Shown here piece by piece: positions 6,251-37,400 of a DNA stretch of 64,000 nucleotides (its first letter is position 1; each line of letters opens with the position of its first letter). The stretch spans positions 1-64,000 of the forward strand of contig JASANC010001923.1 in assembly GCA_030248135.1 (NCBI GenBank), in the 5' to 3' direction. The translations under genes were made by a program, and so were the position numbers. Source of the DNA: Theristus sp. LFF4_11. Taxonomy: Eukaryota > Nematoda > Chromadorea > Monhysterida > Xyalidae. Under the pieces are notes generated by a model. That model had not been told where the DNA came from and made no database searches. It saw nothing but the letters and a program-made list of their open reading frames with translations.

Positions 6251-6754
6251 GTTTTAGCGATGTCCGAGAACATCCAACTGTGGAGCGTGAGTTAACTGGA
6301 GCGTAATATCATAAAACGTGCCAACCCGATATAACCAGAGATGCCAAAAAAATTCTATTTTTTTTTCTTTAAAAAAAATTTTTAATTTTTTTTTTAAATC
6401 AAAGTTGTTCAGAATTTTTCAGGGAGTCCGAATATCACCATCTGAGGAGCCACCGACTTACCATATGACCCCCACTCATATGGGACGAGGGTGAAAATTT
6501 CAGACTTGGTTTCGGCGACCCCATTTTCCCACCGACGACATCACGTCTCGTGTTTTGCCTCTCAATTCACCTCAAATAACACGGAAACAAGTTCAACAAC
6601 AAACCGGTGTGATCATGCTGACGACACGAGGCGAAACAGCAACGAGCAACCAACGAAGTTACGCTCAGTAGCGAAAGCGGGACCTCGGGTGAGGGGGGTG
6701 TTTGCTTTGAGATTCCCTTACTTTATTCCCTTTACCAAGCTAGATTAAGGTTGT

Positions 6755-6925
6755 TTTGCACGCAGATTTTAAATTTCAGCTTTCCGGATTACGGTAACGC
6801 CTGGTTTGGTCTCAAAACGATGTTAGTTTTATCAACAACTCATAAACAGCTTGGTAACCGCAACCAAACCGCTGAAACAAGTTACCGTAATCCGGAAAGC
6901 TGAAATTCAAAATCTGCGTGCAAAA
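6755..6925. repeat. ~170-bp imperfect palindrome plus two downstream partial direct repeats (to ~7215)
   Basis: GCACGCAGATTTTAAATTTC at about 6755 pairs with GAAATTCAAAATCTGCGTGC ending near 6922, and CCGGATTACGGTAAC pairs with GTTACCGTAATCCGG. The right half, containing GGTTGCGGTTACCAAGCTG, is repeated twice more in direct orientation up to about 7215. Confidence 0.75.
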
Positions 6926-7289
6926 CAACACTAATCTAGCATGTTTCGCCGGTTTGGTTGCGGTTACCAAGCTGTTTGTGGGTTGTTGATAGAACTAAGA
7001 TCGTGGTGAGACCAAACGAAGCGTTACCGTAACCCACAAGGTTTAAATTTGAAATCTCCATACAAAACAATCCTAATCTAACTTGTTTCACTACTTTGGT
7101 TGCGGTTACCAAGCTGTTTGTGGATTGTTGACGGAACTAAGATTGTGTTGGGACCAAACCGGGCGTTACCGTAACCCACAAGGTCAAAATTTGAAATCTC
7201 CGTGCAAAATAACGTATATTTACAAAGTTTCGGGGCTGAAATAGCTTTAAATGAGCTGTTTATATGTTGATACGCTAAAATAGGACAGT

Positions 7290-7480: not shown

Positions 7481-7892
7481 GCCACAGGGACCCTCCTTGC
7501 AAGGGCTCATTGATACAGGGCCTTAAAGAACTCCGCAAGATCTTTCACGTGATTACTGTGTGAGGTTCCCGAACTGTGCAACAACGAGATACGGTAGGGC
7601 TAAAATTGGATATTGGATTATTGGATATAGTACATTGGATATTATTCAAAAAATTGACATTGTTTTTCTGGTTTCAGGAGCAATGCAAACATTACGGCGT
7701 ATATTCACATATACGATAGCGTACACCAGTTGTGTCGAAGCGTGAACTTTCGGCCTCGTACAGAGGGCTCGACGAACATCGAACAATCAAAGTAAGGGAA
7801 TCTCAAAGTTTTTAGCTTTTTTATACTGATCTGGTGACTTTTTGGGTTTCGTGCTCCTTTCTTGCTTGATTTGCTATATTTGCTTACACTAG

Positions 7893-9191
7893 CTATGCAG
7901 CAGAGCGGTACACAGCCAGAACTGCGTCATGTGTCGTATGTTGACGAACATACTGCTGTGTGACCACATGAACGTTTTCGTCGTTGTATTGTAGCCATCT
8001 TTCTGCTGCGTTTTCTTTTAAGAAACAGACGTAGTGACCTGAACAAATAGATCGTTTGGTAATGAAAATGGCCAGAAGGCTCGTTAAAGATAGAGTCACA
8101 AAAAAATCATCGCGCACCACGGTTCGCATCGCACTCTGCACCATAATGCACAATGGCGCCGACGAGCTCCATTTGCTGCTGTTTCGCACCACCGTCAACA
8201 TCGCCAACTGGAACTTCGACATTGGCGCTCAGTTCCATCGGTTGTCTGCTTTTTTGCATTCTGCCGTCATCGCTCGGATTTGCTCGATGAATGATGACCA
8301 GAATGTGCCTGATGAGGATTTGGAAAAGTGTGAGGATTTCACTGAAACCTTTAACTCGCTGCCATTGGTTGTTCTTATTTGCTTACATTATAAAGTTGTT
8401 TTGTGGCAATTAATGAGATGTTCTTACCCTGGAAGCGTCGAAATCCAGTACTCCTGCATTCGGTTGCCCTGACATCCGGCAGAATTGCAAGTCAACCCAG
8501 TGGGATGACGCATATTGACTCGAATCGCGTCTTGTAGCGTTGTTTGCTGTCCGTGATGCTCGGGCATTCGGATTCTTATGCCCCAGTCGGAGGCGTCAGC
8601 GTGTTGAGCTTGACCGCAACTGTCGCATCGCAACTCGTATTCCATTACGAGCCAGAAGGACGGTTCAACCAATGCGATGTTCTCCCTGCGCAACGCGTTC
8701 AAAACGCCGTTTAACAGCTCGAGTGCGTCCTAAAATGATTATTTATTATTCGACAGCTTATTGGCTTGTTAGCTGTGAACAACGGTGCATGAATTAAGTG
8801 TGACTAAAACTTGCCTGTTGATTGTCGACATTTTGGCGGCATTGCTGCATGATCGTTTCTGCCAACTGCTCGACCATTGTTTGTCGCTCTTTTCTCGTTT
8901 CTGCACCGTTTTGTATTGCCGTTAGTGCGGTCAACTTGCTGAAAAGGTGGCTATTTGGCTTGTACATTTGTTTTGAATCGTCGGCATATGCTTGTGTCGG
9001 TACTTTTTGGTGATGCTGTTCCGTTTCTGTGTTGACATTTAGACATTTTAGATTACCGTGTAATGACCGCATGACCGGGCATGTCACTCGCATCAACTGA
9101 CAAGAGCTGTGTACGCATGGCACTTGGCAGACGAATCAACATTTGAGCGATTGAGATTGCGTAGCACATAGTGCCCCTTGCGTTTCGTATT
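7893..9191 (-). CDS. Ubiquitin-specific protease (peptidase C19) catalytic domain, apparently the C-terminal half of a MULE transposase chain
   Basis: USPs remove ubiquitin from proteins through a Cys-His-Asp/Asn triad. Minus-strand exons: about 9076-9191 (5' edge firm at 9191), about 8815-9020, 8428-8729, 8118-8341, 7893-8038 (stop). The Cys box reads GIRNARGTMCYAIS across the upstream splice, compare the family GLxNxGNTCYxNS. QQDALELLNGVL spans a splice. A zinc ribbon carries CDSCG and CNSAGC. LPGEILTLFQILIRHILVII resembles the core beta strand. The His box is NRGHYVCFLKENAAERWLQY, followed by NDENV, which could supply the third catalytic residue. The intron after 8815 uses a GC donor (CAG|GCAAGT). 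Phases match at 9302/9191, 8815/8729, 8428/8341 and 8118/8038. The joint between the first two exons (9191 and 8815 blocks) is not resolved. Coding potential is intact, so this is not an obvious pseudogene. Confidence 0.85.
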
Positions 9192-9301
9192 CTAAAACAA
9201 GCGGTAAAACTATTACAACGCTTCAATAAATAACTAAATAACCATAAGTCATTTTTTCAACACAAAAAATTCACAAAAATGTGACAATAAAAAAGTTATA
9301 C

Positions 9302-12300
9302 CCTCGAATCAACGACAATTGCTTTTGCTGTTGCTGTTGGAAGTGTTGCTGTTGCTGTTGGAAGTGTTGCTGTTGCCGTTGGAAGTGCTGCTGTTGCTGG
9401 TGATGCTGCTGTTGGAAGTGTTGCTGTTGCTGTTGGAAGTGCTGCTGTTGCTGGTGATGCTGCTGTTGGAAGTGTTGCTGTTGCTGTTGGAAGTGCTGCT
9501 GTTGCTGGTGATGCTGCTGTTGGAAGTGTTGCTGTTGCTGTTGGAAGTGCTGCTGTTGCTGGTGATGCTGCTGTTGGAAGTGTTGCTGTTGCTGTTGGAA
9601 GTGCTGCTGTTGCTGGTGATGCTGCTGTTGGAAGTGTTGCTGTTGCTGTTGGAAGTGCTGCTGTTGCTGATGATGCTGCTGTTGGAAGTGCTGCTGTTGC
9701 TGTTGGTGCTCATTGTCGTTGATAGAGTCTGCACGATTTCGCTTCAGCTCTCGCGGCTTGCCCGTGCCGCATAAGTGAGATGCCGCACTCAAAAACCGGT
9801 TGATGACCATCATTCGAGTTGCTTCGAATCGGTTCAGCCAGGTAAACGCCAGTGCCTCAGTGCATGCACGATGCAGCCATCGAGCTCCACTCATGACGCC
9901 GCGTTGCTCAAACACCGTCGTGTCATTTTCCAGATCATCCATTGGACCGTCCTGAATTTGGTCGTCCCAATCTTCTTCGTACATTTCGCTGACCCTTGCG
10001 GCTAGCTCTGCGAACTCTGTGAAGCGGAACAGGTACTCAAGATAGTGCAGTCGCTCCATCAGCTCCACTTTGAATCTCTCCAATTTATCAGCCATTGTCT
10101 CGTATTTTGGCGTTTTCTTGAAAGAGCTTTCTGGTTCCGGCGCTCGGTCAGTGCGGTGCTCGTCGGTCGCATGATGGGCTTTCAGCCACGCGAGCAATGT
10201 AGGGGGCGAACAGTGGCGCGGTACGGTGTCACTAAAATACCTATTCAATTTTTAGCTCGACTATACGGTATGGCCGATTAAACGTGGCAGCTTTTTTCAG
10301 GGTGCAAGGTGCGCGCGAAATTTGAACTTTCTTTCTCCTTTGCACACAAAGTTGCTATTTATCTTGGCAATCTTGAAAAAGACAACTCCTAGTCTGCGAG
10401 TGTTCCCGCCTTGATGAAGAATACAAGGACTGCCTCATTTATTCGGCCATACTGTAGCAATTATCAAAAATGTCATTTGACAATCTCTGCACAGGAAAGA
10501 CGATTATTTTATGTCGTTCGCATGTTTACATTATCTGCGGTTTCATGTCAACATGCGGTCGTAACATGAGCACGACAAAATGACATGCGGTCGTAACATA
10601 ACCACGACATGTATTTTGTCTCAGCTCGTTCGCATGCAGCATAGTTTCGAATTATAAGCAGCAACTTTTAATGAGAACATGATGACGTGCCTGATACTGC
10701 GTGTAATCGCCCCCTTCACACGCAGTCGCATGTTGTTATTTCATGTGCATATAATGTGCATACAGCGCGCTAAAGAACTGAACAAATTGCTCGTTTGTTT
10801 TTCTCTAAACTATGGTTTTTAACCGCATTTCATTCCTGATTGAAATTTATTCTACATATTAATGCGTGTGTCACCAATAAAACCGTCGGTGATCAGCCAA
10901 CCGACGGCTCATACATCCTTGGCGTGTGTGTGTGCGCGTGCGTGTGTCACGAGTAAACCGTCGGTGATCAGCCAACCGACGGCTCATACATCCTTGGCGT
11001 GTGTGTGTGCGCGTGCGTGTGTCACGAGTAAACCGTCGGTGATCAGCCAACTGACGGCTCATACATCCTTGGCGTGTGTGTGTGCGCGTGCGTGTCACCA
11101 GTAAGCCGTCGGTGATCAGCCAACCGACGGCTCATACATCCTTGGCGTGTGTGTGTGCGCGTGCGTGTGTCACCAGTAAGCCGTCGGTGATCAGCCAACC
11201 GACGGCTCATACATCCTTGGCACGTGTGTGTGCGCGCGTGCGTGTGTCACCAGTAAGCCGTCGGTGATCAGCCAACCGACGGCTCATACATCCTTGGCAC
11301 GTGTGTGTGTGTGTGCGCGTGCGTGTGTCACCAGTAAGCCGTCGGTGATCAGCCAACCGACGGCTCATACATCCTTGGCACGTGTGTGTGCGCGTGCGTG
11401 TGTCACCAGTAAGCCGTCGGTGATCAGCCAACCGACGGCTCATACATCCTTGGCACGTGTGTGCGCGCGTGCGTGTGTCACCAGTAAGCCGTCGGTGATC
11501 AGCCAACCGACGGCTCATACATCCTTGGCACGTGTGTGTGCGCGCGTGCGTGTGTCACCAGTAAGCCGTCGGTGATCAGCCAACCGACAGCTCATACATC
11601 CTTGGCACGTGTGTGTGCGCGCGTGCGTGTGTCACCAGTAAGCCGACGGTGATCAGCCAACCGACGGCTCATACATCCTTGACGTGTGTGTGTGTGTGTG
11701 CGTGCGTGTGTCACCAGTAAGCCGTCGGTGATCAGCCAACCGACGGCTCATACATCCTTGGCACGTGTGTGTGCGCGCGTGCGTGTGTCACCAGTAAGCC
11801 GTCGGTGATCAGCCAACCGACGGCTCATACATCCTTGGCACGTGTGTGTGCGCGTGCGTGTGTCACCAGTAAGCCGTCGGTGATCAGCCAACCGACGGCT
11901 CATACATCCTTGGCACGTGTGTGTGCGCGCGTGCGTGTGTCACCAGTAAGCCGTCGGTGATCAGCCAACCGACAGCTCATACATCCTTGGCACGTGTGTG
12001 TGCGCGCGTGCGTGTGTCACCAGTAAGCCGACGGTGATCAGCCAACCGACGGCTCATACATCCTTGACGTGTGTGTGTGTGTGCGTGCGTGTGTCACCAG
12101 TAAGCCGTCGGTGATCAGCCAACCGACGGCTCATACATCCTTGACGTGTGTGTGTGTGTGCGCGTGCGTGTGTCACCAGTAAGCCGTCGGTGATCAGCCA
12201 ACCGACGGCTCATACATCCTTGGCACGTGTGTGTGCGCGTGCGTGTGTCACCAGTAAGCCGTCGGTGATCAGCCAACCGACGGCTCATACATCCTTGGCA

Positions 12301-15300
12301 CGTGTGTGTGCGCGCGTGCGTGTGTCACCAGTAAGCCGTCGGTGATCAGCCAACCGACAGCTCATACATCCTTGGCACGTGTGTGTGCGCGCGTGCGTGT
12401 GTCACCAGTAAGCCGACGGTGATCAGCCAACCGACGGCTCATACATCCTTGACGTGTGTGTGTGTGTGTGTGCGTGCGTGTGTCACCAGTAAGCCGTCGG
12501 TGATCAGCCAACCGACGGCTCATACATCCTTGGCACGTGTGTGTGCGCGCGTGCGTGTGTCACCAGTAAGCCGTCGGTGATCAGCCAACCGACGGCTCAT
12601 ACATCCTTGGCACGTGTGTGTGCGCGTGCGTGTGTCACCAGTAAGCCGTCGGTGATCAGCTAACCGACGGCTCATACATCCTTGGCACGTGTGTGCGCGC
12701 GCGTGCGTGTGTCACCAGTAAGCCGTCGGTGATCAGCCAACCGACGGCTCATACATCCTTGACGTGTGTGTGCGCGTGCGTGTGTCACCAGTAAGCCGTC
12801 GGTGATCAGCCAACCGACGGCTCATACATCCTTGACGTGTGTGTGCGCGTGCGTGTGTCACCAGTAAGCCGTCGGTGATCAGCCAACCGACGGCTCATAC
12901 ATCCTTGACGTGTGTGTGCGCGTGCGTGTGTCACCAGTAAGCCGTCGGTGATCAGCCAACCGACGGCTCATACATCCTTGGCACGTGTGTGCGCGCGTGC
13001 GTGTGTCACCAGTAAGCCGTCGGTGATCAGCCAACCGACGGCTCATACGTCCTTGACGTGTGTGTGTGTGTGCGCGTGCGTGTGTCACCAGTAAGCCGTC
13101 GGTGATCAGCCAACCGACGGCTCATACATCCTTGACGTGTGTGTGTGTGTGCGCGTGTGTGTGTCACCAGTAAGCCGTCGGTGATCAGCCAACCGATGGC
13201 TCATACATCCTTGACGTGTGTGTGTGTGCGCGCGTGCGTGTGTCACCAGTAAGCCGTCGGTGATCAGCCAACCGACGGCTCATACATCCTTGACGTGTGT
13301 GTGTGTGTGCGCGTGTGTGTGTCACCAGTAAGCCGTCGGTGATCAGCCAACCGACGGCTCATACATCCTTGGCACGTGTGTGTGTGCGCGTGCGTGTGTC
13401 GCCAGTAAGCCGTCGTTGACCAGCAAACCGATGTCTCATACAAGCTTGGCGTGTGTATTTGACAATGAAAAGCAGTATTTTTCACGATGCAAACTATTTT
13501 AAAGAATAAAACCTAAACAGATAAAGACGACAATAATAAAAGCTGCGCAACATGAAATGTTGCATTTAATGCAAATTTCATGCACTTTATAAGTCGCAAC
13601 TTAAAATGAGTCATAAAACGACAAACTCGCGCTTTATGTTGAATGGAAAATATGTTGCTTAAAACGACTACTTGATCACGTAGTCATGCAAATTTAAAGC
13701 CAGCATTTCACGACATAAAAAAATCGTTTTCCTGTGCTGGCCTTCAATTGCTGACCTCGAAACAATTTGGTTTTAGGGGTATTTGTGTTGTTAAGCAAAG
13801 CAAAGTTCTTCACCTTTTCATGGAGCCGTGATACCCCTCACTGGGATTATTCGTTTTTGCGCCGATGCTGTCCCAGTGGCCCCAGCGTACGATGTGCTTT
13901 GCACTATTCGGATTCAACCACTCACGCTGTTAGAGAAAGTAAATAATTGAATGGTTTGGTTTCTGTGTTGGCTGCTGTACATAAGTCTTATATTTTCATA
14001 ATACACAACCTCCATGTATTGTCTGAACCCGTTGAACAATCGCATGCCGTTGGTGCAGCCACTTTCAGCCATTTTCTCTGCCATTCGATGAACCGAGTTA
14101 GCCCACCAGCCGTCAATCAGATCTGGGTCGAGCAGCGGTAGGCTTCTGATCTACATTCATTGACATACATGAGTGAATCAATCAATTTGGTGACAAAATA
14201 AGGTCATCGCATTCAATACGGGTCATGATACCTGGTCGATCCAGGAAGCGATCGTGTGCTCAATGTTGCCGTTGTTGCTGCTGCTTTGTTTTCCAGCCCA
14301 ATTAGCGAACTGGAGCGACTGCTGCCGAATCAGTTTTACGTAGTGCCAATGACATCCACGGATCTAAATTGTTTTAACTGTTTTTTTGTTCAAATAAAGT
14401 TTCAATTACCGCGGGAAAATTATTACATAAAAGGGTATTACCGTGACACTTGTTCAATTGCTCGCCACGGCGCCTGCTCGAAATCTAGAACCGCGTATCT
14501 CCATTTGACGTGAAAGCCCCGCGCTTCCATCGCATGGCGCAATCCCTCGAACACAAGTCGGTAGGCCGCTGTTGTGCGCGTGTTCATCAAACAGTGCGCC
14601 ACTGCGACGTACGTCTCTCCGATCTAAAGACGATGTAGAGAACAATGACTGAATGGTTGTTTGTTTTATGTTGATTTGCAGTCACTGGTTTGATAAAATC
14701 AAACTTATGTCCCAGTGAGTTTTATTGAAAAATTTACCGGCACGTGGATGATGAACATCTGCCAATCGCGTGACGGAACTGGATCCCATGTACCGTCGCA
14801 GAAAATCACAATTGCCTCAGCAAGCACTCTCTGTTCGCTCGGCGCGCATAACAGCAAAATTCGCAGCTCAGTGTCACGCAAAAGTATGCGGCTAAAATGA
14901 GTTTTCATTGCTGTGCAGTTCAGTAACAATTTGTGGAAACAGTTTTCAGTAACGACGCAGATTGGTGGTATTTCGAGGGAACCATAAATTTGAACGTAAG
15001 CTGATTCGCCATACGCGTACCACTCGCGCTGTCCGTGTTCGTTTCGATAGGACAATGTGCAAAGCCGCTTAATCTGCGTCCATTCGATTCTCGACAATTC
15101 AGATTCGGGTTTGAACACGCCACGGCAGGCACAGCGTGACGGCGATGGCGACGGGCCGCTTGTTGCGCGGTTCGCTCACCGATGTTAGGCACAAGGCGCT
15201 TCAATCCAAACGCGTTGCGGCCCTGCGCACGTTCGCGCTCAATCGAGCGAATGAGAACCTGTAAGTCGTAGCTTAGAAGTTTCTTGGTCGTAGCACGTTT

Positions 15301-15989
15301 CTTGGTTGATTAAGTTGTGATTTTTAAAAATTTTCATTTTATTGATTTTTAATGTAAATTACAATCCCATTATGACCTATTTTTTCAAACGTGTCCCACT
15401 GAAATGACGTCATGTGCCACAAAACATGTGCTTGTCGTTTACAGCAAACCAGACTTTCCGTTTAGCCGATTTCTTCCCGTAAACAAATGGTGAATGTCGA
15501 ATCAGTCACACCAAACTGAAATTTTAGTGCCTGTACTTTGACAAACGGGCGTTTTTAAATAAAATGACGTCACGTTAGTCCGGACACGTTTGAATAAATC
15601 CACAATACCTTGTTCAGTGTGTGTCTGTAGTTTGCTCCTCTTTCAATTTTTCTCAGAACCTCCAGTTTGACACCTCGAGCCAGCACTTCGTGATACGTGT
15701 GTGGCTGGCACCGTGGATGATGGTTCTGGTCAATGTCGTACTGGTAGTGCTGCAATCGATTGTCTCCGTGTGCCAGTCGCCAGGTGTTGTACGCCCTTGC
15801 TGGCTCGTTGTTTGTTTCGTCCGCTGTCGCTTCCTTTCGGCAGCGGACACACGAATAGTAGGCCGCCGTGTCAGTGCTGTTGGTTTGCGTAAATTCGTAC
15901 CAGCTGTTTTCGGTGCCAGCACGTTCGGCACGTGCAAAAAGAACCCGATGCCGACGTTGCGTGCTTGGCTGACCGATCAGCAACGGTAT
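9302..15989 (-). CDS. FLYWCH zinc-finger / MULE-family transposase with Gln-His-rich C-terminal linker
   Basis: MULE transposases cut and paste Mutator-like DNA elements. Minus-strand exons: 15609-15989 (FLYWCH-type finger, SCVRCRK ... HYQYDIDQNHHPRC), 15180-15258, about 14744-15118 (5' border unresolved; contains EAIVIFCDGTWDPVPSRDWQ, the first catalytic Asp region), 14442-14623 (ETYVAVAHCLMNTRTTAAYR and VLDFEQAPWRAI), 14232-14321, 14010-14145, 13814-13926 (WLNPNSAKHIVRWGHWDS, AKTNNPSEGYHGSM) and 9302-10231. The MULE match is the DGTW...LMN-T-TAAY...DFE-A...TNN-EGYH series. The last exon ends in a 54-bp coding repeat. Its end (GAGG|GTATAAC) joins in phase to the USP Cys box at 9191. The first exon begins at an acceptor and has no ATG, so the start lies upstream, possibly cut off by the 16-kb insertions. 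Confidence 0.88.
9311..9715 (-). repeat. Coding minisatellite, 54-bp unit encoding Gln/His/Phe repeats
   Basis: Read on the minus strand in the transposase frame, each unit encodes HFQQQQQHFQQQHHQQQQ. About six full units plus partial ones sit between the transposase core and the USP domain. Repeat number stays in frame because the unit is a multiple of three. Confidence 0.9.
10266..10454. mobile_element. Mariner-type MITE (189 bp), copy A
   Basis: Inverted ends CGGTATGGCCGATTAAA and TTTATTCGGCCATACTG are flanked by TA on both sides (10264-10265 and 10455-10456), the target duplication of Tc1/mariner elements. A second copy with internal similarity is at 48155-48395. It lies in the intron between transposase exons 13814-13926 and 9302-10231. 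Confidence 0.85.
10862..13455. repeat. Minisatellite of ~33 units (~78 bp) with a perfect stem-loop and GT/GC-rich tract in each unit
   Basis: Every unit contains the stem AGCCGTCGGT and its complement ACCGACGGCT around a GATCAGCCA loop, then CATACATCCTTG, then an alternating (GT)n/GCGCGTGCGTGTGT tract of variable length. Several higher-order runs of variants repeat (for example TAAGCCGACGG with a GACGTGTGTG spacer). It fills most of the 3.58-kb intron between transposase exons. The open frames across it are simply the repeat in different frames. Confidence 0.97.
15373..15605. mobile_element. TA-flanked MITE (233 bp), copy A
   Basis: Inverted ends share TTCAAACGTGTCC and inner TGACGTCA, and TA flanks both ends. 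A second copy of exactly the same length is at 57954-58186. On the minus strand its right-hand TA is the TA of the splice donor AAG|GTATTG that ends transposase exon 15609-15989. Confidence 0.85.
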
Positions 15990-16033: not shown

Positions 16034-17133
16034 TGTTACTAGCAAATAACCCGTGCCTACGGCACGGTTAGCTAATGAAAACAATTATTTTTGAGTGGAT
16101 TTTGACTTTCTTGACCCGGATGATCCGGACAAAAATGCATTGGAATTTGATTTTGAGTTGCTTCAACCGACTGTTATTAATTTACCATAGCAATGATCGT
16201 TCAAAATATAAAAGCAATTTTTTAATCAGCAACAAACAACTGCTATTCCCGTTTAAAATATCAAAATTTTCCCTCTGTTAGTAGCTTCTTCATTGTCGCT
16301 AATTTTTGTTTCACTCTTCTTTGATCAGCTGTATTGCATTGTTGTTCCTGTTCAAAGTATCAAAAATCAATCTTGTTTTATTTCTTTTTCATGTCGTCAA
16401 TTGTTGTTCAACTGCCATTCCCTCTCAAAAAAATCAAAAACAACGTTGTTTGATCAGACAACGTTGTTTAATCAGCAAAAATCAACCGATACCCGTTTGA
16501 AGTATTTGAAACTTAAAAAGCAACCTGTTCAGTGTAAAAAAATGTTTTTTGTGATGCATGAATAGCAATAATCCCGTCCAAAAAGCAATCTTTTTAGCGA
16601 TCTCTTTCTACTGTCATCCCCGTTAAAAGCACGATAAAACAATTTTTAATCAGAAACAACCAACTGCTATTCCCGTTCAAAATATTAAAAGGCAATCTCT
16701 TCTGATCAGCAACATTCAACTGTTAATCGATTAAAATTAATCGATTGTATGTGGACCGTTCCACTGATTTGCTATCGATCATGGTCAGGACTTTGTTGAT
16801 GCTCTACTCAGGTCTTTGTTGATGCTGCAATCTTTTTGTAGTGGAACCTGTTCAGCCTATTTGTTCAGCAACAATCAATTGCCGTGCTTTTTAGTAATTC
16901 GATTGGTGTATATGGCGAACAGCAGCAGCAGCAGCCAAATCAAAGTTGTCGATCACAACCTAATATTTTTATTGCATGGGAATGATGATGATTTGGACTT
17001 TTCACAGAACAGAGATTGAAAAAAATTCACATGAATCATGAATAAAAAGTGGAGTGAAGCTACAGATAATGCTATATATAGCAAAAAGCTGCGGACAAAC
17101 AATCAAACAAACTTTCTTACTATCTTAGTATAA
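16034..17133 (+). mobile_element. Helentron-like non-autonomous element, copy 1 (tentative)
   Basis: It starts ACTAGCAAATAACCCGTGCC with a GTGCC-TAC-GGCAC mini-hairpin (about 16051-16066), carries irregular repeats of CAACTGCCATTCCCGTTTAAA-like text, and ends TTACTATCTTAGTATAATA. The same beginning and end flank copy 2 immediately downstream. No Rep/helicase frame is present, so family assignment rests on termini only. Confidence 0.5.
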
Positions 17134-19038
17134 TACTAGCAAATTGACCCGTGCCTACGGCACGGTTAGCTGATAAATACAACCATTATTTTTGAGTTGG
17201 TTTTCCCCTTTTGACCTTGCCCACGACGCGGACTCAAAATCCGCAACCTTTTTAATCAGCAACAAACAACTGCCATTCCCTATTAAAGTATCAAAATCAA
17301 TTCTCGCATTTATTAGCTTTTCAATGTCGCTTATTTGTCCTTTCATTCTTTTCTAATCAGTTGCATTCCACTGTCCTTCCCGTTTAAAGTATCAAAAAAA
17401 CAATCTCCTTTGATCAGCATCAATTAACAGCCATTCCCGCTTAAAGTTTTAAAATTAATCTTGTTTGGTTAGCTTTTCAATGTCGTCACATGTTGTTCAA
17501 TCGCCATTCCTGTTAAAAAAATTATAAAAAAAACAATGTCGTTTGGTTAACAACAATTAACTGATACCGGTTTAAGTTTTTGTTCCAGTTTAAAATACAG
17601 GTTTAAGAAAAGCAATCTGCTTCAGGCAGCTGTCATTTCTGAATAGGCAACACTGTTCTAAATACCCATTGGAAAGCACCCGCTTTTGACTTGGTAATGG
17701 TTTTTTACCCGCTTACCCTAACCTAAGCCAGGCCTTTTAGAGTGTAAATGTCAAAAAGGCAACACTTCTGAACCATTGTTGCAAAACGCCAACTTTCGTT
17801 TTGATAAGTTGCTTCTTTTTCCCGCTTACTCTAACCTAAGCTAAGGTTTTTAAAGTTTAAATGACGAAAAATGCAAAAAATTTCTGAATATTCGCTGCAA
17901 AACGGCCACTTTTGTGTGGTATGTTTACTACTCTTACCTTTAACCCTAACCTTAGCCAAGGATTTTTGATAGAATGGAAATGACAAAACAGCAACATTTT
18001 ACTGAATACCCGTAGCAAAGCTCACCTAAGCCAAGCCTTTTAAAGTTTAAATGACGAAAAATGCAAAACTTTTCTGAATATTCGCTGCAAAACAGCCACT
18101 TTTGTGTGGTATGTTTACTGCTCTTATTTTCAACCCTAACCTTAGCCAAGGATTTTTGATAGAATGGAAATGACAAAACAGCAACATTTTACTGAATATC
18201 CGTAGCAAAGCTCCCGCTTTTGTTTTGAATGTTTACTTCTTTTCCCCGCTTACTCTAACCTAAGCCAGTTCTTTTTGATTGAGTGCAACAAAAAGCAACA
18301 CGTTTCTGAGTACCCATTGTGTAAAACGGTCGCTTTTGTTTTGTTATGTAGCTTTTCTATCCTAAGTGATGCATTTTCTATGATAAAAAAAAACAAATGA
18401 AGGAAAAAGCAACAATTTTCTACATTTTACTGAACACCCGTAGCACTTAAAGCTCCCGCTTTTGTTTTGAATGTTTACTTCTTTTCCCCGCTTACCCTAA
18501 CCTAAGCCAGTTCTTTTTGATTGAGTGCAACAAAAAGCAACACGTTTCTGAGTACCCATTGTGTAAAACGGTCGCTTTTGTTTTGTTATGTGGCTTTTCT
18601 ATCCTAAGTGACGCATTTTCTATGATAAAAACAAATGAAGGAAAAAGCAACGATTTTCTAAATACTCGTTGTAAACACCGGCTTTATAAAAAGTCTACCT
18701 TGTAAAAAGAGCGATCAACTTGCAAGCGATTGTTTTAAAAACTCGTTTTTTGTGAAAAAACTCCATCGTCTACAATGGAGTCCTTGCAATTCTTACGATT
18801 GTCTCGCTTGAGCAAAACTCTTGAGCAAAAGGCATCATGATGACTAACGTCATGTGGAATGACTATTTGAACTTTCCATTGTCATTAGAAAATGGAGTAT
18901 GAGTATTCAGCTGATGATGACTTAAATGACATAAATAGCAAAATTGGCTCAAACTTGTAAATTTTAATAGCCAATCAACGTAGCGGAACGGACCTGACTT
19001 ACATACATACACAGTTACTATCTTAGTATTATAGATTA
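17134..19038 (+). mobile_element. Helentron-like non-autonomous element, copy 2 (tentative)
   Basis: It opens ACTAGCAAATTGACCCGTGC with the same GTGCC/GGCAC hairpin and ends TTACTATCTTAGTATTATAG, followed by GATAGATAGATAG. Internally it holds an imperfect ~130-bp duplication (about 17865-18000 against 18045-18180), another pair (about 18205-18400 against 18445-18640), and several reverse copies of the CCTAACCTAAGCC motif. Confidence 0.5.
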
Positions 19039-19572
19039 TAGATAGATAGATAGATTCGCGTACAGTACACGATTTTTGCAGGACTGGTATTTTCCTTAAT
19101 ATTTAAAATAACGATTTCTGATAAACAATGTTGAGCCTCCGATTTTTATGTGCGTACATTAACGCTTACGTTAACTCGTTAACTCATGATTTTGTGTTAC
19201 TGACATCTCGGCTCAAGTGGAGCTTTTCACGTTTTTTGTGTTCGTAAATTCTATGCCAACTTTTCTAGAGGTCGAATGCCTGCTGGTCGAGTAGACTGCG
19301 GCGTGCTGGCCTGGTCCGAACATGACATATCCACTGTTTGTTGATTTCATGGCAAAACAGCAACTGCAACACGGTGCAGACATGAGGCGCTTTTTGGTTG
19401 GTTATTGGTTTCATTTCAATGGCTTTAATTGGTCGATATTCGGTGAGAGTTTGTTTTTTTTCTTCAATAAGTCATAACTTTTGCAATTATCCACTGTTTT
19501 CCAAAATGCGCACAGAGCCGACAATTAAAACTGCCATGCGCCGGTCAAGTGAACGTTCACAAGAGCGAGCTG

Positions 19573-34400: not shown

Positions 34401-37400
34401 TTTTTTCTTTGGGAAAATCCAGTATTTGCAAAATTCTCAGTTTTATTGTGATCTATTCATTCTATTGCAGCCTCGCGGTGCTAATGATGACGTGTTTCAT
34501 GATCCGATCAGACTCGTCGGCAAAGACGCCAGTCAGTTTGGTACATCCGTAGCGAAACTTGGCGATCTGAACAAAGACGGCTACAACGGTAAGCCAGTTG
34601 TAAACTCCGTTCGAAAGCTCTGTGCATACTTGTTATTTTTGAAGTCACCTGATTTTTCAAGAGAAGGCATGGGGATGGGAAACACGCACCTTTCATTGAT
34701 AATAAGGCGACTGATTTGTTGAGCTGAGCCATTCAAAACAACATGTTCATAGCTTTCGAACGTTGTTTGTTTTTTTCTATATTTCTCTGTTTTGCGTGCC
34801 ATGTTGAATATTTTTTGTGATAGATAATATTTTTGAGAACAATTTCAAATACATTACAGATTTCGCCGTTGGCGCTCCATTTGACCAGGATGGTGGCGCT
34901 GTCTATGTCTATCACGGTGTTGCGACACCCGAGGACTTGTCTGGGAAACCGGCGCAGGTGGCTAGTTTGTGACTTGTTCTTTGGTCATTTCGACTCGTTG
35001 ATTGGTTAAAGCAACGGGCTGTCCACTGAACTCCACCTGTTTGTGTTATCTGATCAGCATAGTTTTCCTTTGTCTCAGGTAATCACGGGCAAGACCGTTC
35101 ACGAGGCCAGTGGCGGTTTCCCATCTCTGACCACTTTCGGCTGGTCACTAAGCGGCGGTCTGGATCTGGATAAAAATGGTTATCCGGATCTGGCGGTGGG
35201 GGCCTGGCAGAGTGACGCCGTCGTCGTGTTGCGGTGAGTTTTTTTTCGGACAGAAACCGAATACCGAAAATGTGAAGTTAGCTGTTTGCTGTTTGTGGTT
35301 GTGGACGCAGTGCCCGTACGGTACCCCGGTGAAACGCACTGGTTCATAAAGCATCGATGGGGAATTGATAATTTCGTTTGTTTTATTGATAATGCTCGTT
35401 TTCTGAAGATCGCAACTCGAGGTGTTCTTTTTGTCAGATCTCGACCAGTGATCAAAGTGATGGCCGATTTGGACGAATCCACACAACTGTCCGTCGATAA
35501 AGATGAACCGTGCGCGACTGACAGTTGGGCGCAGGCGTGGTGAGAAAGTTGTTTTAGCGTCATTTATGATGAAAATTCAAAAAAGCGCCAATCGATTTTG
35601 CAGACGCAAACGATGAACATCAATTGTCCAACGCAGTTCTGTTTGCGCCTGTTGCAGTTTCACCATCCGAACGCGCGTGCGTGTGCAACGCTCGGCCGAT
35701 GCGCTCGTGGGCGTGCAGTTTGATCGCGACCTGTTCACGTGCCGTCTGGAGATTCTGCCGCACGCCAAGGGCGTCCCTCTGAGGGCGTCTTTCAACTCCG
35801 GCGGTGCCAATTCGACCGAGTGGCCTTGTGGGCGCAACGTGGACAGACAGCCGCAGCTGCACTCGACGCAAGTGTTCTTGCCGGTGCGTGTGGTCGAGCT
35901 TTCTATTTCATGGTATCTCCCCACTCTTCCGCTTCCAGAAACCCGGAGGTAAAACTCCGGTGGTTGGTGGGTGGTGGTTGAAGCTTTTGTTTCACAGTCA
36001 TAATATTGCAGCGCAACAACAAAGACTGGCTGCGGCCGTTGAAGTTCAAGTTTACGGTTCAGCTGGCGTCCAATGTTGGCCCGCCGCGGTCACGGCCAAA
36101 TGACCCGCTGATAAATTTGGACCGTTACCCGGTGATCGACAAGGACGGGTCGGAGCATGAATTCGCGGTTAATGCTTTGTGATGTTTATGTTTTTTCAGT
36201 TTTTTGTTGTATTTTTTATTGTTTTTTTTTGGCAGCGAATTGTTCCGCCTGTTTCTTTCTTGCTGTTTCTTCAGTTCTGTTTTTCTTTTGTATGCAGGTT
36301 GATTTCGACAAGAAGTGTGGCGCCGACAACAAATGTCACAGTAATTTGCACGTGAAGTGTCTGTTCAAGAATTTACCGTGAGTTTTTTTCTCCTTTCTCC
36401 TGGTTTCACTATCGCTATTTGCAGTTTTTTGCTTTTGACAAATCTAGGAATACTCGAGAAAGTTTATCGCTTCGTAATAAAGTGAACAAGTTTGCACTTT
36501 TCTTTAAACAATCAAAGAGGATTGTATCGTCCTCCGCAAGTGGCGAGGGTACTGAGCAACTGTATGCTGAGCCGTCCGTTCCCGACATCGATAAGGGGAG
36601 GGGGCGTGCTTCAAAAATTAAGAGTCGAAATTGAAAAACTCAGTTTTCATGTTAGTTTCGACGAATCCACGGGAACGTACGTGAAACACGTCGGCGCTGA
36701 CGACTCGCTGGATTTAATGTTCGAGATTGAGAACAGAGGGGAACGAGCGTATGAGAGCATGCTCTATGTGCGCTACGATAGTCTCGAGTTGGACAGGCCA
36801 ACCGTGAAGTTGGCGCAGGCGTCCAGGAATCAGGTGGGGGACAGAGCTGGAGTTTGGAGTTAGCTTTCTTGAACTTTGTTGATGATAATTGGTTGATTTG
36901 TGTCGTTGCTGTGACCGCAAGCTTCCTGCTTGTCCATTTCGTAATAAATAAAATGGGTGCATAAGCCACCGTTCTTGAATTAAAACAAACCTGTTGTTTT
37001 GAATCAATCAAGATTGACAACCGAAGGATTTGAATTTTTTTACATTTTCGATTTTCTTCTTCAGAGAGTGATCGACGAAGGTGCGATCAAGGATCTGATC
37101 ATGTTCTCATTCGGCAATCCGTTTCACGAAGGCGCAAAGGTGCGACTGACAATTCTTTGGCTGACTGTTCTTTTTTTCATTTCAAAATGTTCCATGCGAA
37201 AACATTCAAAATTTTCATGGTTTTCATATCAACGCAGAATCAAATCAACAATTTTTTTATTAAATTCAGCTGGTTTTTGCGATGCAATTCCGGATAGCGC
37301 GCGGCGAGACGGAGGCCATCGGACGAGCGCTCGAGTTCGCCGTCCATGCAAACACGTACTCGATTTCTTGTTGTTGTTTACTGCAAACCCTGATGCGTTG

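Follow-up and report, generated by a model that had tools for sequence, protein, structure and literature searches.

A gene on the minus strand of a 64,000-nucleotide stretch of the nematode Theristus sp. LFF4_11 (contig JASANC010001923.1, positions 1 to 64,000, referred to here as the window) belongs to a family in which the transposase of a Mutator-like element (MULE) is followed by a ubiquitin-specific protease (USP). Because this order recurs in ten diverged contigs of the genome with a common junction, the predicted fusion is very probably real, and we are highly confident that copies whose frames are open yield a single protein containing both halves. The gene runs from 15989 to 7893, starting with exon A just after an AG at 15989 and ending with the USP stop codon at 7893, and consists of MULE exons followed by a Gln/His-rich linker, a 110-nt intron and the USP. 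An earlier interpretation made from the letters of the window (the sequence-only reading) had traced the same course, from MULE exons via the Gln/His linker into the Cys box of a C19 peptidase and through further USP motifs to a stop, and these elements were seen where it had placed them.

Recurrence of the junction between the two halves

The comparison was made within the assembly from which the window derives (159 Mb, 3744 contigs; the window contig is designated C1239). As the genome searches score the best candidates only, contig counts are lower bounds: the USP half was found in at least 7 contigs and the MULE half in at least 24. A MULE followed by a USP on the same strand was seen in 10 contigs (C1239, C3733, C2016, C2968, C1623, C969, C177, C3201, C2482 and C1421), among which are six of the USP-match contigs; C2954 holds the last USP exon only. 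Partial MULE copies occur in C79, C3742, C3602, C808 and C2871, and no USP was found with these in the compared DNA, which mostly ends soon after the MULE. The downstream DNA of nine MULE-match contigs was left out of the comparison (C2460, C1431, C158, C2608, C180, C548, C2817, C2530 and C1753), C1753 ending about 320 bases past its last MULE match. Since C2968 and C1623 are 99.2–99.5% identical along the whole compared stretch they probably represent a single place in two haplotypes, so that the ten contigs represent at most nine distinct loci. C1239 and C3733 share 94–96% DNA identity and could be alleles. Models of C2968, C177, C1421 and C969 (the last from exon D on) contain no frame break and no stop, an earlier C1421 model having needed one frame break.

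The join at 9302/9191 reads GAGG/gt...ag/A ATA CGA and gives G-I-R-N-A-R-G-T-M-C-Y, as the sequence-only reading had claimed, and the join at 13814/10231 likewise holds. The joining intron (9192–9301, 110 nt, GT-AG, phase 2, joined codon GGA for Gly) has counterparts throughout the family. In all ten contigs having both halves modelled an in-frame GG/GT donor lies 1–67 nt before the stop of the MULE frame, the acceptor AG lies exactly one nt ahead of the I/V codon preceding P/R-N and the Cys box, and the two allow a GT-AG phase-2 intron completing a Gly codon; this is a plain count from a scan that took phase-2 sites only. The final 120 nt of the MULE frame hold 2–5 phase-2 GTs per locus and most loci also have a second phase-2 acceptor. 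Independently of that scan, all nine free spliced alignments reach the exon with the USP Cys in phase 2; eight use the common acceptor and the ninth, C2968, one lying 15 nt upstream. The intron measures 91–124 nt in every contig except C969, where it reaches 299 nt. The junction persists although identity between loci falls to 29% for the MULE and 21% for the USP, and without co-translation of the two halves its retention would be difficult to account for. Ahead of the junction the linker differs in kind. C1239, C3733, C2016 and C969 have a Gln/His-rich one, C2968 and C1623 one rich in Gln/Asn/Arg, and C3201 and C2482 one rich in Lys/Pro/Gln; that of C177 is acidic, and that of C1421 is short and less simple. 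Such varied composition fits a predicted role as a flexible tether. The fusion proposed from the window is in this way borne out by further copies in the same genome.

Exons and domains of the window gene

All exons lie on the minus strand. The transposase half comprises exon B (14738–15258) with the first catalytic Asp in FCDGTWD, exon C (14450–14623) with the second in LDFE, exon D (14232–14363) with the CxxH-type motif GCHWHY, exon E (14010–14150) and exon F (13814–13926) with the catalytic Glu in NNPSEGYH. A stretch of exon B at about 15020–14892, placed by eye, is spliced out in models of relatives. A 3.6-kb intron (10232–13813) follows; it contains a minisatellite (10863–13450) in which a 77-bp unit is repeated 33.8 times, the counterpart intron of C3733 being 135 nt in the model. 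Exon G (9302–10231) encodes the MULE C-terminal region and the Gln/His/Phe-rich linker, with a 54-bp unit repeat at 9353–9706.

The earlier identification of a Mutator-like transposase stands. Pfam MULE (PF10551) matched above cut-off in C2968 (3.4e-8) and C3201 (3e-6), and scans of three transposase regions listed no transposase family besides MULE. The window protein alone gave 0.0034 (18.2 bits), which is below cut-off. The motifs FCDGTWD, LDFE and NNPSEG hold D, D and E, which we take to be the catalytic residues, with the GCxWH motif lying between them. These residues are kept in 8, 8 and 9 of 9 rows, the C969 row lacking coverage of the first two; the DDE triad and the CxxH motif are present in all rows covering these positions.

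The USP half starts with exon H (9076–9191), which carries the Cys box GTMCYAISIAQ, the codon of the catalytic Cys lying at 9166–9164 by count. The 3' end of exon H is set by a 49-nt GT-AG intron (9075–9027). In the free models of C1239 and C3733 the frame breaks on passing from exon H to exon I; this intron keeps the window frame open, so that the window USP requires no frame break. Exon I (8815–9026) ends in QQ of the QQD box and has a GC donor, exon J (8428–8729) supplies the D of that box and zinc-ribbon-like cysteines (CDSC ... CNSAGC), and exon K (8118–8308) is followed by exon L (7893–8038) with the His box GHYVCF, YNDENV and the stop codon. In intron-position models built on a common profile, the QQ/D intron is in phase 0 in nine of nine and a phase-1 intron precedes GHY in nine of nine, at two neighbouring columns.

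The joined USP exons of the window matched Pfam UCH at 8.1e-22 over profile positions 5–250 of 254, and UCH was matched in all eight USP rows (best 4.8e-28); no Ulp1 (C48) family was listed in the scans of these proteins. Compared with solved USPs, the window sequence alone gave weak matches (best 6.4e-4), and a profile of eight family members gave USP12 as its best match (2.7e-22). The score of the USP12 alignment is carried by its C-terminal part (3.1e-15), the Cys and QQD boxes aligning weakly. The USP Cys and GHY are present in nine of nine rows, and the QQD aspartate and an Asp/Asn as third residue in eight of nine each; the roles of the Cys, QQD, His and third residues are presumed here.

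Exon A (15609–15989) encodes an N-terminal zinc-binding-like domain with an invariant C-x2-C, a following H-H-x2-C and aromatic residues in the seven aligned members. It had been labelled FLYWCH, a label that we reject: PF04500 gave no match in any of the seven up to E=10, and as a control the same Pfam model found FLYWCH at 5.6e-11 in the MULE of C280. The nearest family is RYYR-CCHC (PF23674), matched in five of seven members at E<=10 (best 6.3e-5) and at E=2 by the window exon, so the domain is at most weakly RYYR-CCHC-like. A profile search of solved structures with the N-terminal domain returned one chance-level match only.

Upstream of C3201 and C2482, a few hundred bases from exon A, lies an open reading frame (ORF) of about 112 amino acids with its own ATG and three C2H2 zinc fingers (Pfam 5.8e-17), the two copies being 77% identical. 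It is not counted as a start exon of the fusion, because it is terminated by a stop and lacks a common in-frame donor.

Selection, origin and competing explanations

Ratios of nonsynonymous to synonymous change (dN/dS) were calculated by NG86 on codons from predicted exons, some across a frame break and a few possibly wrong. Values for the MULE and USP halves were 0.15 and 0.37 for C3201–C2482 and 0.18 and 0.30 for C1239–C2016, which C3733–C2016 repeats; for C1239–C3733 the MULE half gave 0.31, the USP being practically unchanged. The remaining pairs were saturated or nearly so at synonymous sites. These values indicate that the close pairs are under purifying selection in both halves. The USP proteins of C1239 and C3733 show one difference in 326 residues, whereas about 5% of synonymous sites differ in the MULE half; gene conversion or a haplotype mosaic may account for this.

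To approach the origin of the USP, 8 fused USPs were placed in one tree with 6 host ones, over 106 columns; three of the host rows are C-terminal pieces only. The fused USPs do not form a clade as the host USP of C803 falls among them; a single clade was not rejected by the approximately unbiased (AU) test (p=0.23). The MULE and USP trees conflict on the placement of C1421 and C177: MULE data reject the grouping C1421+C3201+C2482 (AU p=0.006) and USP data reject C177+C3201+C2482 (AU p=0.0085). The conflict tentatively suggests that the USP was exchanged between lineages, tentatively because branches are long and the groups were named after the trees were seen.

The explanation that we prefer is of a spliced gene family descended from Mutator-like transposons, with this locus as one of its copies. 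The genes would encode a single protein in which a zinc-binding-like domain at the N terminus is followed by a DDE transposase core, a low-complexity linker and, at the C terminus, the USP. The zinc domain and transposase core would bring the protein to particular DNA, where the tethered protease may remove ubiquitin locally from the transposase itself, enabling its escape from the proteasome, or alternatively from chromatin or repair proteins at DNA ends. Transposition would thereby be favoured, or a DNA-directed activity may have replaced it. The order of the parts, the recurrent joining intron, the conservation of the predicted active-site residues and the indicated purifying selection are the established part of this explanation; from them we infer a deubiquitinase that works in cis, its target being the transposase, the transposition complex or chromatin. 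To the explanation in full, a MULE-descended fusion family whose protease acts locally at bound DNA, we assign a probability of roughly 0.5. A more specific history is doubtful, namely that a host USP was captured on a single occasion by a selfish MULE lineage, which kept it under selection as a tethered, DNA-guided deubiquitinase shielding the transposase or clearing chromatin ubiquitin at element ends, and that the module was exchanged between lineages.

A number of observations weigh against this explanation. The fusion is known here from genomic sequence, and deubiquitinase activity is predicted from residues, which in C969 include Cys for the QQD aspartate and Ala as third residue. The N-terminal domain assignment is weak, and a genome search with PF23674 placed C3346 (twice), C1529 and C2210 over cut-off, none of them a fusion locus. 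No start-codon exon was found for window-type copies, and the C2016 model contains two stops. The consistent splice phases that had been claimed hold at the 13814/10231 and 9302/9191 joins and fail within the MULE half of the window, where the frame of exon B is broken by 1 nt near 15119 (compared with C79, C2016 and C2968), possibly a sequencing error, and exon C has a 10-nt gap at its 3' end near 14450 (compared with C3733 and C2016). The latter could be absorbed if a different donor, a few bases further upstream, were used, as it was in the free spliced model. As to mobility, five flank pairs (1.0–4.0 kb a side, 10 shuffles each) contained no convincing terminal inverted repeats. Inverted matches in the flanks of C2016, C2482 and C3201 were not above shuffles, the best in C2968 scored 14, the highest of its shuffles scoring 13, and the best in the window, 19, lies inside a Helitron-like insert described below. 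A perfect 20-bp inverted pair downstream of the USP stop (6705–6724 and 7789–7808, about 1.1 kb apart) is not tied to element ends. MULEs without terminal inverted repeats (non-TIR MULEs) do exist. The 3' DNA was found at three places only, so of the multiple copies with shared ends that the sequence-only reading had suggested looking for, copies were found and a large set of shared ends was not.

Low copy number and the lack of convincing inverted repeats in these flanks are also what would be expected of an immobile, ancient MULE-USP fusion domesticated as a host gene family, its members now serving as DNA-directed deubiquitinases, for example on histones or transcription factors. The purifying selection in close pairs, the open frames of some deeply diverged copies and the many introns at common positions point the same way, and we regard domestication as quite possible if short of probable. 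It accords less well with transposase catalytic residues kept in every covering row, with partial and internally deleted copies scattered in the genome, and with the module exchange tentatively suggested by the conflicting trees. Among the partial copies, C808 and C2871 hold pieces 94–97% identical to C1421, with deletions; both lose similarity to C1421 at the same base and then share about 790 bp, and C2871 additionally lacks an internal stretch present in C1421. Old, low-copy transposon lineages are somewhat more likely than wholly domesticated host genes, a mobile past being favoured because of the MULE descent, the kept catalytic residues, the scattered partial copies and these C808 and C2871 derivatives.

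Two further readings were considered. If the joining intron were retained the MULE frame would stop 1–67 nt past the donor, and the halves might then be separate neighbouring genes or an operon with a trans-spliced USP; gene spacing in nematode operons is usually close, and seven of the ten contigs have an in-frame Met before the Cys within the unspliced open stretch. No such Met precedes the Cys box in C3201, C2482 and C1421, however, in C1239, C3733 and C2016 it abuts the active-site Cys, and separate genes would not be expected to share one GG/GT donor, acceptor place and phase in all ten contigs. A search of the genome for SL1 RNA found none, its control being likewise silent. Given the junction recurrence and the start codons missing in three of ten contigs, this arrangement is judged very unlikely. 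It is still harder to credit that the locus is a decaying pseudogene or an assembly chimera of no biological meaning. The window copy has the two transposase-half gaps and the Helitron-like insert, but the architecture is common to at most nine distinct loci, the C2968, C177, C1421 and C969 models are uninterrupted, and in the unsaturated pairs each half has a dN/dS below 1.

Surrounding DNA and known transposase–protease systems

The 5' region of the window copy is split upstream of exon A by about 3 kb of Helitron-like DNA (16035–19043, minus strand), which is absent in the similar contig C79 where the flanks adjoin. It has a TCTATAATACTAAGA-like 5' end and a GC hairpin then CTAG near 16035, features that we take to be those of Helitron ends. 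A second hairpin end near 17165–17130 suggests two nested or tandem Helitron-like units. Downstream of the gene, at 6736–7222, are nested inverted repeats with arms of 63–149 nt, and DNA similar to this region as far as 7484 lies beside the C2016 copy. Elsewhere the window contains an exon of a CPEB-type RNA-binding protein (996–1505; CEBP_ZZ, 8e-20) and an integrin alpha Ig-like domain exon (36492–36863; 6.4e-6).

Proteases of the ubiquitin or SUMO pathways occur in several DNA transposons that are unrelated to one another, and an extensive involvement of the ubiquitin pathway in transposition has been proposed (PMC2836005). A MULE joined to a USP under apparent purifying selection would make that idea testable by well understood enzymology. 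The tools at hand for USPs include active-site mutants, ubiquitin probes and inhibitors. If domesticated, the fusion would be a natural DNA-directed deubiquitinase.

No report of a MULE-USP pairing was found in the literature searched, most subscription papers lying outside it. Within the same genome the closest arrangement is the FLYWCH-MULE of C280 (ORF at 913–2544 of the extracted stretch, 543 amino acids) and a 99% identical stretch in C753, which represent another MULE lineage. Here too a zinc domain stands N-terminal to the MULE transposase; the differences are a true Pfam FLYWCH (5.6e-11) and one long ORF, and no USP match was found at E<=0.01 in the DNA compared. No relative of the fusion or of the C3201 USP was found at E<=0.001 in a large protein collection whose eukaryote content is uncertain, so that this result carries little weight. 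Plant MULEs of the Kaonashi type are counted among those carrying Ulp1. Hydra, lancelet and plants have Mutator elements described as carrying Ulp1 (PMC2836005), which are alike in joining a Mutator-type transposase to a cysteine protease of the ubiquitin and SUMO pathways; the protease there is Ulp1, whereas here it is a USP (UCH, eight of eight rows). Some Helitrons carry OTU, and Ginger1 elements carry OTU or Ulp1 domains (PMC2836005). Ginger1 shares the C-terminal protease behind the transposase, and many Ginger1 have introns (PMC2836005), but the transposase is Gypsy-integrase-like there and Pfam MULE here, and the protease is of another family. The Trichomonas vaginalis protein XP_001314237.1 joins Transposase_11 to a peptidase C19 (PMC2836005), and so resembles the present family in linking a C19 ubiquitin protease to a DNA transposase domain; it differs in that the transposase is not MULE, the organism is a protist and one protein is named. 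The FAR1/FHY3 family offers a likeness in MULE transposases turned host genes, and differs in being of plants and in that the openings of the abstracts on it mention no deubiquitinase domain. The MULE-USP pairing adds to these known transposase-protease fusions, and the protease pairing itself is new as far as searched.

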